Below are positions 27,601 through 31,948 of a DNA stretch of 41,960 bases, piece by piece (position 1 is the first letter of the stretch; each line of letters begins with the position of its first letter). The position numbers and the translations under genes are program-made. This DNA comes from a virus. The stretch is from positions 1 through 41,960 of the IMG/VR virus record IMGVR_UViG_3300044642_000328; one strand, 5' to 3'. The notes beneath the pieces are model-generated. The model had not been told where the DNA came from, made no database searches, and worked only from the letters and a program-made list of their open reading frames with translations.

Positions 27601-29400
27601 ATGACTAAAGATGTAGTCCATGGGATTAATGTCGATTATTCTAAAGATAATCTGTTCGATGAATTAGGTATTAAAAGATTAAAAGAAAGCTATATGAAGG
27701 ATGAGGAAGTATCTCCTCAAGAAAGATTTGCATATGTATCAGCCGCTTTTGGAAGTAATAAAAAACATTCTCAGCGCCTTTACGATTACGCCAGTAATCA
27801 TTGGCTCAGCTACAGTACTCCTATTCTTAGCTACGGTCGTAGCAAGCGCGGCTTACCTATCTCTTGCTTTCTACCGTATCTTGATGACAGCGCAGAAGGC
27901 CTTGTTAGTACATTATCAGAAGTAAATTGGCTCAGCATGCTGGGAGGAGGAGTTGGAATTGGCATTGGTATTCGTTCTTCTGATGATAAGTCTGTTGGTG
28001 TTATGCCTCATCTTCGCACCTATGACGCGTCATCGCTTGCTTATAGACAAGGTAGGACACGTCGTGGCTCATATGCTGCTTATTTGGACATTAGTCATCC
28101 TGATATCCTCATCTTTTTAGAGATGAGAAAACCAACAGGCGATCCTAATATGAGGACGCTTAATTTGCATCACGGCATTAATATCACTGACGACTTTATG
28201 GCGTTGGTTGAAAAATGTATGATAGATAAAGATGCAGATGATATATGGGAATTAAAAGACCCTCATTCAGGTGAAGTTCGTGATACTATCTCTGCCAGAG
28301 AATTATGGCAACGTATTATTGAAATGAGAATGCAGACAGGCGAACCATATCTACATTTTATTGATACAAGTAACAGAGCAATGCCGGAATTTCAGAAGAA
28401 GCTTGGTCTAAGTATTAAACAGTCTAATCTATGCTCTGAAATTATTTTACCTACAGACAAAGAACGTACTGCAGTATGTTGCCTATCATCTTTAAACTTA
28501 GAATATTATGATGAATGGAAAAACAATAAGTTATTCCTAAGAGATGTTGCTGAAATGCTAGACAATGTCCTGGAATATTTCATTAATAATGCACCCAAGG
28601 CAATTTCTAGGGCAATATACTCTGCTATTCGTGAGCGTTCTATTGGCATTGGTGCTTTAGGGTGGCATGCTTATTTGCAGAAAAATAATATACCATGGGA
28701 ATCTGCATTAGCTGTAGGCAGAAACAATCAAATCTTTAAACATATTAGACAAGGTTTAGATCATGCAAATATTGAATTGGGTAAAGAAAGAGGGGAAGCT
28801 CCGGATGCCGTTGGCACTGGGCGTCGTTTTAGCCATATGCTTGCTATTGCACCTAATGCAAGTTCAAGTATTATCATGGGTAATACTAGTCCCAGTATTG
28901 AACCTTTGCGTGCTAATGCTTATAGACAAGATACGTTATCGGGGTCAATGCTCAACAAAAATAAATGGCTAGATAGAATTATACAGAAACATGCTGAGAT
29001 TCATCCCGAAGGTTGGGCAGACGAGGTTTGGTCAAGCATCATTGCGAATGATGGTTCAGTTCAACATATAGAATGGTTAAGTGATTGGGAAAGAGATGTG
29101 TTTAAAACATCTATGGAAATAGATCAACGATGGGTTATTCAACATGCCGCAGATCGTCAACAATATATAGATCAAGCGCAGTCTGTTAATCTATTCTTTA
29201 GACCAGACTCTAATATTAAATACTTGCACGCTGTGCATTTTATGGCATGGAAAATGGGGTTGAAAACACTTTACTATTGCCGTTCTGAAAAGATCGGTAA
29301 AGCGGATAAAGTATCTAAAAAGATCGAACGAGAAGTCATCAAAGAACTTGATATGAAGGCCATGGTCGACGGTGATATTTGTATTGCGTGTGAGGGATAA
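27601..29400 (+). CDS. nrdA: Ribonucleotide reductase class I, large subunit
   Basis: This 599-residue protein reduces ribonucleotides to deoxyribonucleotides. Active-site residues: C89 (SCFL), N276-x-C278-x-E280 (NLCSEI; C278 is the thiyl-radical cysteine), C293/C294 (AVCCLSSLNL), the paired tyrosines of TLYYC for radical transfer, and C-terminal C594-x2-C597 (CIACEG) for reduction by thioredoxin. It is much shorter than E. coli NrdA and the N-terminal ATP-cone is absent, so dATP overall-activity control is probably lost. A good SD (GGAGAG) precedes ATG 27601. It heads an operon that ends with nrdB. Confidence 0.96.
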   Translation: MTKDVVHGINVDYSKDNLFDELGIKRLKESYMKDEEVSPQERFAYVSAAFGSNKKHSQRLYDYASNHWLSYSTPILSYGRSKRGLPISCFLPYLDDSAEGLVSTLSEVNWLSMLGGGVGIGIGIRSSDDKSVGVMPHLRTYDASSLAYRQGRTRRGSYAAYLDISHPDILIFLEMRKPTGDPNMRTLNLHHGINITDDFMALVEKCMIDKDADDIWELKDPHSGEVRDTISARELWQRIIEMRMQTGEPYLHFIDTSNRAMPEFQKKLGLSIKQSNLCSEIILPTDKERTAVCCLSSLNLEYYDEWKNNKLFLRDVAEMLDNVLEYFINNAPKAISRAIYSAIRERSIGIGALGWHAYLQKNNIPWESALAVGRNNQIFKHIRQGLDHANIELGKERGEAPDAVGTGRRFSHMLAIAPNASSSIIMGNTSPSIEPLRANAYRQDTLSGSMLNKNKWLDRIIQKHAEIHPEGWADEVWSSIIANDGSVQHIEWLSDWERDVFKTSMEIDQRWVIQHAADRQQYIDQAQSVNLFFRPDSNIKYLHAVHFMAWKMGLKTLYYCRSEKIGKADKVSKKIEREVIKELDMKAMVDGDICIACEG

Positions 29401-29724
29401 ATGATAACAATAACCGAATCAGCAAAAGAGAAAATTATTGATATAATGATAGATGAAAATGATCCATCATTATCTTTGAGAACTTTTGTCCAAGGTGGTG
29501 GGTGTTCTGGTTTTACTTATGGGTTCACGTTGGATAGTGTTAAAAATGAAGACGATTATGAATACGAGGTAGACCGTTTCAAAATATTTGTCGACAGTAT
29601 CAGTATGCAATATTTGAACGGAGCAACAATAGATTATAAGGAAGAACTTATGTCTAAGCAATTTGTAATTACTAATCCAAACGCAAAACACACCTGTGGT
29701 TGTGGTAGTAGTTTTACTGTATAA
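29401..29724 (+). CDS. A-type iron-sulfur carrier (IscA/ErpA-like)
   Basis: This 107-residue protein has the three conserved cysteines of the family: C35 (GGGCSG) and C99-x-C101 (HTCGCG). A-type carriers bind iron or Fe-S clusters and hand them to target enzymes. It starts directly at the nrdA stop, inside the RNR operon, so a role in iron supply to the NrdB diiron site is an attractive inference. Distinguishing IscA from ErpA or SufA is not possible here. Confidence 0.92.
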   Translation: MITITESAKEKIIDIMIDENDPSLSLRTFVQGGGCSGFTYGFTLDSVKNEDDYEYEVDRFKIFVDSISMQYLNGATIDYKEELMSKQFVITNPNAKHTCGCGSSFTV

Positions 29725-29730
29725 AAGAAT

Positions 29731-30372
29731 ATGGCACACTTAGTAGCAAATTTACCACCAATTCACGGTTGGATAAGAAGAGAATTCTTATATGACTTTG
29801 AAAAAGGTCACGGCGAATATGAACCTTGTATATGGATAACCTTAAAAAGTATCAGGGGCCAAGCATTTCGTATTGAGGCATATTTACCTAATTATGGTGC
29901 TTTGTATGATAAATTACCTTTACATGCTTTTGTATCTAGAACAGAAAATTTAGACGAAAGTAAATTTTTAGATTTAGACGCGCTTCAAATTTGGGATTGC
30001 TTTAGTTACGATTTTACAGTAATCCAAAAGTCATTTATGAGAAATTTAAGTTGTAAGTTCTATGCTAAGGATAAAAATTTTTACAGCGGAGACTATTTAT
30101 TTACTGTAGATCATTCCTCTCCTGATATGAATATCTTAGATACAAGTTATGCTGAATGGCCTGAAGATCACAAAAGTTTTAACTTTATACAATTGGACAA
30201 CGGTCAATATGCAGCACAGCCAAACAATCGTTGTCTATTTTTAGACGCAGCTAGCAATCCAAAAGAATTAAAATTCCCAGATTTTAGAGTATGCACAAAG
30301 AAATATGTTGTAGAAACAAACCCAAAATGGTTTTTGGGAGACAGTAACACAGTAATGTACGAAAAGGAATAA
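29731..30372 (+). CDS. Conserved hypothetical protein of phage RNR clusters
   Basis: This is a 213-residue protein. N-terminus LPPIHGWIRREFLYDFEKGHGEY recurs in marine T4-like phages, usually close to nrd and Fe-S carrier genes. It shows scattered conserved W, F and D residues (LQIWDCFSYDF, TSYAEWPEDH) but no recognised catalytic motif. No signal peptide. Function unknown; the steady neighbourhood suggests a link to nucleotide metabolism, but this is only contextual. Confidence 0.75.
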   Translation: MAHLVANLPPIHGWIRREFLYDFEKGHGEYEPCIWITLKSIRGQAFRIEAYLPNYGALYDKLPLHAFVSRTENLDESKFLDLDALQIWDCFSYDFTVIQKSFMRNLSCKFYAKDKNFYSGDYLFTVDHSSPDMNILDTSYAEWPEDHKSFNFIQLDNGQYAAQPNNRCLFLDAASNPKELKFPDFRVCTKKYVVETNPKWFLGDSNTVMYEKE

Positions 30373-30374
30373 AA

Positions 30375-30539
30375 ATGCCAGAACAATTTTTACACGAAAG
30401 ATATATCAGATATAAATGTAAATGCGGATGCGAACAACATTGTGGGCACAGTTGCTCTACTGAAGGTTGCAACTGTACAGAATGTGAATGTAAACAATGT
30501 TCCGACACTGATAAGAATATTGAAAAAGGATACAACTAA
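30375..30539 (+). CDS. Cysteine-rich miniprotein
   Basis: This is a 54-residue protein with 10 cysteines and two histidines between residues 15 and 42 (C15, 17, 19, 23, 27, 32, 34, 37, 39, 42; H22, H25), in the style of CKCGCEQHCGHSC. That density suggests metal binding (zinc or iron), perhaps metallothionein-like. It starts three bases after the previous stop and its stop overlaps the thioredoxin start (TAATG), so it is a coupled operon member. I do not recognise the family. Confidence 0.72.
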   Translation: MPEQFLHERYIRYKCKCGCEQHCGHSCSTEGCNCTECECKQCSDTDKNIEKGYN

Positions 30540-30790
30540 TGAAAAAGATTTTAAGATTTACGGCATCATGGTGTGGTCCTTGTAAAGCATTGGCAACAAA
30601 CCTAGAAAAAGCAGACATTAAAACTCCTATTGAAGTAATTGATGTGGATGAGAATAATGCTTTGGCCGCAGAATATGGCATTCGAGGTGTTCCAACTCTA
30701 ATTATGATTGACGAAAATATTGAGGTTAAAAGAATGTCAGGTAACAAAACTGTAGAAGAACTAAAAGAGTGGGTAGGCGATGGTAACTAA
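30539..30790 (+). CDS. Thioredoxin-like protein
   Basis: This 83-residue protein has the CGPC motif (C12-x2-C15 in TASWCGPCKA) and a cis-proline in GVPT (P52). It is shorter than bacterial thioredoxins, as usual for phage ones. It lies between nrdA and nrdB and overlaps nrdB by 11 bases. The natural role is to re-reduce the NrdA C-terminal cysteines. Glutaredoxin is less likely because of WCGPC. Confidence 0.9.
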   Translation: MKKILRFTASWCGPCKALATNLEKADIKTPIEVIDVDENNALAAEYGIRGVPTLIMIDENIEVKRMSGNKTVEELKEWVGDGN

Positions 30791-31772
30791 ACCTAAAAGC
30801 AGATTAACAGATAATAGAAATTCTTTTAAGCCTTTTAATTATCCATGGGCATATGATGCTTGGCTTAAACATGAACAAAGTCATTGGTTACACACCGAAG
30901 TACCAATGCTTGAAGATGTTAAGGATTGGAAAAAGAAATTAAATAAAGAAGAGAAAGAATTTTTAACTCACATCTTTAGATTCTTCACCCAAGGTGATAT
31001 TGACGTTGCTGGCGGCTATGTTAAAAATTATTTGCCTTATTTTCCGCAACCTGAAGTACGTATGATGTTGATGGGATTTGCTGCAAGAGAAGCTTTACAT
31101 ATTGCAGCATATAGTCATCTAATTGAAACATTAGGGTTGCCCGATACTACATACAATCAGTTTATGGAATATCAGGAGATGAAAGATAAACATGATTACG
31201 TACTTGACATTAGTTCTCGGAATGGTGACACTAGTTCTACTGCAACACACATCGCAGTCTTCTCAGCTTTTACAGAAGGTATGCAACTTTTTAGTTCTTT
31301 TATTATGTTGCTTAACTTTCCTAGAATGGGTAAAATGAAAGGTATGGGCCAGATTGTAACCTGGTCTATCGTTGACGAAACACAGCATGCAGAATCTATG
31401 ATTAAATTATTCCGAACATACGTAGAAGAAAACAAGGAGATATGGAATGATGAGCTCAAAGGGAAGATCTACACGATTGCGGAGAAAATGGTTGATTTGG
31501 AAGATAAGTTTATTGAACTGTCTTTCCGAACTGGCGCGATACAGGGCCTAACAGAAAACGATGTAAAGGAATATATTCGTTACATTGCTGATAGACGTCT
31601 AATTAGTCTTGGATTAAAAGGAATCTTTAAACGTAAAAAGAATCCTTTGCCGTGGGTCGAAGAAATGATTAATGCTCCAACGCATACTAATTTCTTTGAG
31701 AACAGAGCAACAGATTATGCCAAAGGTGCATTATCAGGTGATTGGCATGATGTTTGGGGAAGTGCTACATGA
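30780..31772 (+). CDS. nrdB: Ribonucleotide reductase class I, small subunit
   Basis: This 330-residue protein generates and holds the radical for NrdA. Ligand residues are visible: an acidic residue in TQGDIDV, E104 and H107 (REALH), E166 (FTEGMQ), E200 and H203 (DETQH). Y111 lies four residues after H107, the position of the radical tyrosine. The C-terminal tail is GDWHDVWG. It overlaps the thioredoxin gene and, by ATGA, the following Zn-finger gene. The radical type (class Ia against other subclasses) is not certain from sequence, but the tyrosine is present. Confidence 0.95.
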   Translation: MVTKPKSRLTDNRNSFKPFNYPWAYDAWLKHEQSHWLHTEVPMLEDVKDWKKKLNKEEKEFLTHIFRFFTQGDIDVAGGYVKNYLPYFPQPEVRMMLMGFAAREALHIAAYSHLIETLGLPDTTYNQFMEYQEMKDKHDYVLDISSRNGDTSSTATHIAVFSAFTEGMQLFSSFIMLLNFPRMGKMKGMGQIVTWSIVDETQHAESMIKLFRTYVEENKEIWNDELKGKIYTIAEKMVDLEDKFIELSFRTGAIQGLTENDVKEYIRYIADRRLISLGLKGIFKRKKNPLPWVEEMINAPTHTNFFENRATDYAKGALSGDWHDVWGSAT

Positions 31773-31948
31773 CAGAAGAAACTATATCATATGTGGATAA
31801 GCGCAGAGAAATTTGCGACAAATGCGAACATAAGAAAATTATAATCGGTGCGAAATTTTGTGAGGAATGTGGTTGTGCTATTTGGGGTAAGACTCTGATT
31901 AAGTTTCAATCATGTCCTAAAGGTAAATGGAATGCCGAAGAAAATTGA
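31769..31948 (+). CDS. Small zinc-finger protein
   Basis: This is a 59-residue protein from ATG 31769, overlapping the nrdB stop. Cysteines: C-x2-C (REICDKCE), C-x2-C-x-C (FCEECGC) and a late CP (SCPKGKW). The pattern 'IC.KC...G...C..CGC.....CP.GKW' is that of small phage zinc-binding proteins of unknown role. Overlaps dCMP deaminase by 17 bases. Confidence 0.75.
   Translation: MTEETISYVDKRREICDKCEHKKIIIGAKFCEECGCAIWGKTLIKFQSCPKGKWNAEEN

Follow-up and report, generated by a model that had tools for sequence, protein, structure and literature searches.

Thioredoxin and Fe-S biogenesis genes between nrdA and nrdB in a group of T4-like phages

A-type Fe-S carriers and IscU are enriched between the class I RNR subunit genes nrdA and nrdB in relatives of the virus analyzed here, and they arrived there more than once and in differing gene orders. 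The virus comes from environmental DNA and is represented by a 41,960-base record (the window, meaning this whole stretch of DNA), whose products include a phage primase as well as tail and baseplate proteins of the T4 type. We propose that in this T4-like phage group the nrdA-nrdB interval may be a flexible accessory slot in a dNTP-synthesis operon, which would be filled selectively with thioredoxin as a reductant and with proteins of Fe-S biogenesis, namely ErpA and, in some relatives, also IscU and IscA. Taken as a whole, with ErpA acting indirectly on the NrdB cofactor, the miniprotein M as a metal-thiolate protein and protein U as a separate module, this is the best explanation that we can offer, and we give it about an even chance of being right. 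Its direct support comes from linkage, gap enrichment, and conserved residues. How class I RNRs acquire and retain their metal cofactor in vivo is understood only in part, and RNR is an enzyme on which phages rely heavily; a phage operon that combines RNR with Fe-S biogenesis (up to IscU, ErpA, and IscA in the gap) could be a natural experiment on whether Fe-S supply limits dNTP synthesis in infection.

Gene content of the nrdA-nrdB interval

The genes between positions 27601 and 31772 lie on the plus strand in the order nrdA, erpA, U, M, trx, nrdB (Table 1), with successive spacings of 0, 6, 2, -1, and -11 bp. The erpA ATG immediately follows the nrdA stop, M and trx share a 1-bp overlap, and trx and nrdB overlap by 11 bp. 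An earlier note on this sequence had described four genes tightly packed between nrdA and nrdB, and all of the ORFs are found where it had placed them. Close packing by itself is unremarkable for a T4-like phage, and a 2013 report had already noted that functionally uncharacterized genes can lie among phage nrdA and nrdB (PMC3653736). The gene content of the gap does exceed chance, because the densities of carriers, U, and thioredoxin differ between the gap and its flanks.

Table 1. Genes of the nrdA-nrdB interval of the window
Gene	Product	Coordinates	Strand	Evidence
nrdA	class I RNR large subunit, 599 aa, short form	27601..29400	+	PF02867 3.6e-103; NF006577 743.6 bits, cut-off 620
erpA	A-type Fe-S carrier, 107 aa	29401..29724	+	NF010147 ErpA 142.7 bits; PF01521 1.6e-19; PDB 2apn 2.7e-29
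U	phrog_3704 family, 213 aa, two small beta-barrels (model)	29731..30372	+	phrog_3704 E 1.5e-85
M	54-aa Cys-rich, metallothionein-like miniprotein	30375..30539	+	alignment of 10 homologues; pN/pS about 0.2
trx	thioredoxin, CGPC, 83 aa	30539..30790	+	PF00085 4e-18
nrdB	class I RNR small subunit	30780..31772	+	PF00268 9.1e-76; candidate dimetal ligands and Tyr

NrdA, the carrier, thioredoxin, and NrdB all have unambiguous Pfam or NCBIfam matches. Motifs locate the candidate catalytic residues of NrdA (Cys89, Cys278, Glu280, and Cys293/294), its candidate radical-relay tyrosines (Tyr558/559), and a C-terminal CxxC that is kept (Cys594, Cys597). The candidate ligands and radical tyrosine of NrdB are likewise present (Asp73, Glu104, His107, Tyr111, Glu166, Glu200, and His203) and are consistent with a dimetal-tyrosyl enzyme, although the sequence does not decide between iron and manganese as the metal. 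For both subunits, equivalence to the Escherichia coli numbering is based on motif recognition and alignment to PDB chains. A small zinc-ribbon-like protein (phrog_13558; 31754-31948) overlaps the end of nrdB and is conserved 3' of nrdB in several relatives.

By its profile scores, the carrier is specifically of the ErpA type: it passes the cut-off of the ErpA equivalog model (117 bits) and scores below the cut-offs of the NCBIfam models for IscA and SufA. Its nearest solved relative is Haemophilus HI1723 (2apn), with which the cluster-type cysteines (C ... CxC; Cys35, Cys99, and Cys101) are aligned, and Fe-S binding and transfer are predicted.

Enrichment of thioredoxin and Fe-S biogenesis genes in the gap

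Because loci retrieved with U, M, or ErpA over-represent these three genes, the survey of gap content was anchored on NrdB. The resulting set comprises 80 loci with NrdB identities of 82-100%, both subunits being present in 62. Of these 62 gaps, 33 contain thioredoxin, 28 a BPL_N/GATase-like protein, 21 U, 11 an SNase-like protein, 9 an A-type carrier (ATC), 5 IscU, and 3 M, with family names assigned from representatives. When gap and flanks of the NrdB-anchored loci are compared, thioredoxin accounts for 40 genes versus 0, carriers for 12 versus 7 (0.184 versus 0.019 per kb, about 10 times; p 2.5e-6), U for 21 versus 5 (0.32 versus 0.014 per kb; p 1.8e-13), IscU for 5 versus 5 (p 0.01), and M for 3 versus 0, where the p-values treat loci as independent although the loci are related. 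Among the contigs of this set longer than 15 kb (n=21), 11 contain an ATC, which in 8 is located in the gap, and IscU is in the gap in 4/4. The BPL_N/GATase-like protein (L016:9231-9869 and 27 other gaps), the second commonest gap resident, has no obvious link to RNR.

The order of the genes in the gap varies. The loci L169 and L170 read nrdA-iscU-erpA-U-M-(small ORF)-iscA-trx-nrdB, an arrangement (IscU-ErpA-U-M-x-IscA-Trx) that L169 shares with L370, while L401 has Isc-IscU-Trx, L390 has IscU-Isc-GATase, and L380 has GATase-Isc. An ATC lies within 300 bp of IscU in 45 of the 51 IscU cases. In the IscU of L169 and L170, the last conserved cysteine is preceded by LPPVK, the motif tied to the HscA chaperone. 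The carrier tree implies 7 changes between gap and outside (bootstrap range 7-8) when truncated contigs are counted as gap, 6 when they are left out, and 9 when they are labeled as outside; at least 3 are forced by well-supported branches, and single nodes are weak because the alignment has only 107 columns.

The main rival explanation is that the gap is a generic accessory hot spot which tolerates insertions, so that ErpA, U, and M would be cargo useful elsewhere, ErpA and IscU for instance to radical-SAM or other Fe-S enzymes of the phage. Gap content is indeed highly variable, and since unrelated genes, GATase-like and SNase-like ones among them, are found in the slot as well, it may be such an insertion hot spot. 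Most of the fetched ATCs are moreover found elsewhere in the genome (27 in the gap and 94/121 outside nrd, in loci from several queries, so that these ratios describe the sample). Radical-SAM genes are present on many of the contigs with an ATC outside nrd, although differences in contig size confound the comparison, and for marine phages, in which ATC together with radical-SAM genes had been reported before, a use in such enzymes was proposed by Nishimura et al. (PMC5332604). Set against this are the finding that the gap is repeatedly enriched in Fe-S and thioredoxin genes and several gap-type contigs (G000, G060, G065, G066, and G069) with no radical-SAM match, all of which are fragments. 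We regard the hot spot as a serious possibility but lean away from it.

Thioredoxin belongs to the nrd operon. Considering both the general role of its family and its near-exclusive linkage, it can be proposed that thioredoxin re-reduces the C-terminal CxxC of NrdA. It could alternatively be speculated that thioredoxin, ErpA, and the thiol-rich M guard the infected cell against ROS and that their linkage to nrd reflects a shared timing of expression. ROS-defence genes, thioredoxin and ferritin among them, are numerous in freshwater phages (PMC6802176), and a Dps/ferritin-like gene recurs near U; however, thioredoxin is confined to the nrd gap and not spread among the other genes of the loci, and we consider this alternative very unlikely.

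If the slot is selectively filled, ErpA would supplement host Fe-S trafficking such that iron-dependent dNTP synthesis keeps pace in infection. What is described for known A-type carriers is the transport of Fe-S clusters, not the feeding of diiron sites. The action of ErpA would most likely be indirect: it would keep YfaE-type Fe-S electron donors of the host loaded and not pass iron straight to NrdB, and the loaded donors would allow the diiron-tyrosyl cofactor of NrdB to be assembled and re-reduced. IscU, where present, would join ErpA in the Fe-S supply for upkeep of this cofactor. A role of YfaE for class Ia NrdB is documented (PMC4009431, PMC5126785). No Fer2 (YfaE-like) ferredoxin was found in 36 related records, and the donor in the last link would therefore have to be a host protein.

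Comparison with known systems

The same ATC and IscU families have been reported as auxiliary genes of tailed phages (Nishimura et al. 2017, PMC5332604; HMO-2011-type phages, PMC9038755). The portions of these two reports considered here either connect the genes with Fe-S enzymes, radical-SAM proteins among them, or name no client, and do not describe a placement between nrdA and nrdB. The E. coli nrdAB-yfaE operon likewise links class I nrdAB to an Fe-S-related gene that maintains the diiron-tyrosyl cofactor, but YfaE is a [2Fe-2S] ferredoxin, whereas the Fe-S gene of the window encodes an A-type carrier. The class Ib operon nrdHIEF is similar in providing RNR with its own redoxin and cofactor-maintenance protein; in contrast, U and M of the window match no NrdH or NrdI model, and for the RNR subunits the best-scoring models are not those of class Ib. 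Two features appear to be new, neither of them found described in the literature searched: the location of genes for Fe-S biogenesis within a phage nrd operon, and the pairing of U with Cys-rich proteins.

Protein U and its Cys-rich neighbors

The earlier note had treated U and M as undescribed members of the cassette. As a family, U has been described: it is phrog_3704, which occurs in 114 phage records. U has no Pfam or NCBIfam match, and it is labeled as ferredoxin (PHROGs) or as PurM (cyanophage records in GenBank), with NC_019516.2 and NC_006884.2 among the phage records that bear one of these labels. We reject both identities. There is no invariant cysteine among 253 U sequences and no Fer2 match, and the lack of any Pfam or NCBIfam match for the window protein is accompanied by the lack of a Pfam PurM match among 22 relatives. 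These unsupported labels are carried by phrog_3704 across many public phage records. Invariant across the 253 sequences are instead His147 and a PNNR motif.

The AF2 model of U (pLDDT 80, pTM 0.76) is mostly strand, and its two halves (residues about 3-73 and 100-172) match many small Tudor/SH3/KOW-like barrels with middling Z. The best match by VIA-align has a Z of 6.8 and an rmsd of 2.1 over 59 residues, with many barrel families tied. A Foldseek search of the PDB with the model gave nothing under 1e-3 (best E 0.05), and among viral models only unnamed or uncharacterised proteins fell under this value. As the barrel matches are spread over many families, they fix neither family nor function; U would probably bind another protein or nucleic acid.

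The distribution of U places it in several contexts. In loci gathered with several queries, so that the ratios describe the sample, 67 copies are in the gap and 250/317 are outside nrd. U adjoins polA in pelagiphage-type loci (polA is annotated in HTVC027P) and gp25/gp6-like baseplate genes, named by sequence reading and not by profile, in cyanophage-type loci. It is present in the complete Pelagibacter phage HTVC027P, where the RNR barrel domain is absent (no PF02867 match in the complete genome), while in Pelagibacter phage HTVC008M it lies between both subunits (nrdA-hyp-U-nrdB). Genome contigs yielded only 32 loci with a relative of U, largely from MAG or single-cell contigs. Because U occurs outside nrd, including in a phage lacking the RNR barrel, it is not RNR-specific; it is an independent phage module, often but not always in the nrd slot.

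M is a real gene, as judged from its pN/pS of 0.11-0.25 between relatives and from its ten cysteines and His22, none of which varies among 10 homologues with identities as low as 36%. Searches of Pfam, PHROGs, NCBIfam, PDB, and INPHARED gave no match for M, and its AF2 model is uninformative (pLDDT 49). M has the metallothionein trait of a small, Cys-rich protein with conserved CxC/CxxC candidate ligands but matches no described metallothionein family among Pfam, NCBIfam, PHROGs, and PDB sequences; we therefore call it metallothionein-like, with putative metal binding. It would seem to resemble bacterial metallothioneins of the SmtA/BmtA type, which are short proteins rich in cysteines at CxC and CxxC spacing and also contain a His, and to differ from them in the pattern of its ten conserved cysteines and in having no Pfam match. 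Among the papers listed in a literature search, none was relevant to metallothioneins in phages. The composition and conservation of M suggest a small metal-thiolate protein that might buffer or store metal or protect thiols for the nrd operon.

M is nearly nrd-restricted, with 20/27 detections in nrd gaps and 7 outside, several of the 7 being at truncated contig ends, in a sample drawn from several queries. It probably belongs to the nrd operon. In L139 (9805-9960, minus strand) and L140, the gene for a divergent relative of M stands head-to-head with that for a phage A-type carrier, and no RNR gene was found on the contig, a fragment.

The proposal in the earlier note was that of a complete kit for RNR, in which ErpA hands iron directly to NrdB and both U and M serve RNR as dedicated accessory proteins. 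Physical linkage, the gene order in HTVC008M, and the strong preference of M for nrd gaps all agree with it. The polA and baseplate neighbors of U and its presence in HTVC027P do not, nor do the properties of A-type carriers noted above or the relatives of M without nrd nearby (L070, L139, and L140), and we find the complete kit unlikely. The observation behind it is thus confirmed, and its interpretation is partly supported: thioredoxin, the carriers and IscU with their repeated arrival in the gap, and M fit a link to RNR, while U as an RNR-specific member does not. The note had named an occurrence of the genes mostly independent of nrdA and nrdB as the observation that would refute the kit; in the loci fetched, this is what is seen for U and the carrier family at large, but not for thioredoxin or M.

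Under the explanation that we favor, U is a separate module which in some lineages may work with the Cys-rich miniprotein encoded directly after it. In 19 of 80 pelagiphage-type (polA-context) loci, spanning 689 kb, a Cys-rich ORF of 45-67 aa lies within 200 bp downstream of U, and no such ORF is found elsewhere on the same strand in those 80 loci. M likewise directly follows U in window-type loci, and both kinds of miniprotein share a CxC-rich composition. We do not claim homology between M and the podovirus-type miniproteins, whose BLASTP similarity is limited to a CDCNEC motif (E 0.003). The occurrence of a Cys-rich ORF after U in polA context suggests that U and its partner constitute a module independent of the nrd cassette. 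A bolder and rather improbable extension would be that the pair is a widespread, undescribed two-component module, a beta-barrel adaptor with a metal-thiolate partner, and that it joins the replication machinery present in the given phage, which would be RNR in T4-like phages and DNA polymerase A in podoviruses of the pelagiphage type, its nrd version recruiting Fe-S carriers to mature the RNR cofactor.

Other genes also recur around U. The Dps/ferritin-like gene is located a few genes away in window-type loci (L076:5011-5442 and similar). A small basic protein (phrog_516; L320:7816-7953) that ends in KYRGQGR adjoins U in many cyanophage-type loci, and short proteins with similar endings adjoin it in some window-type loci.
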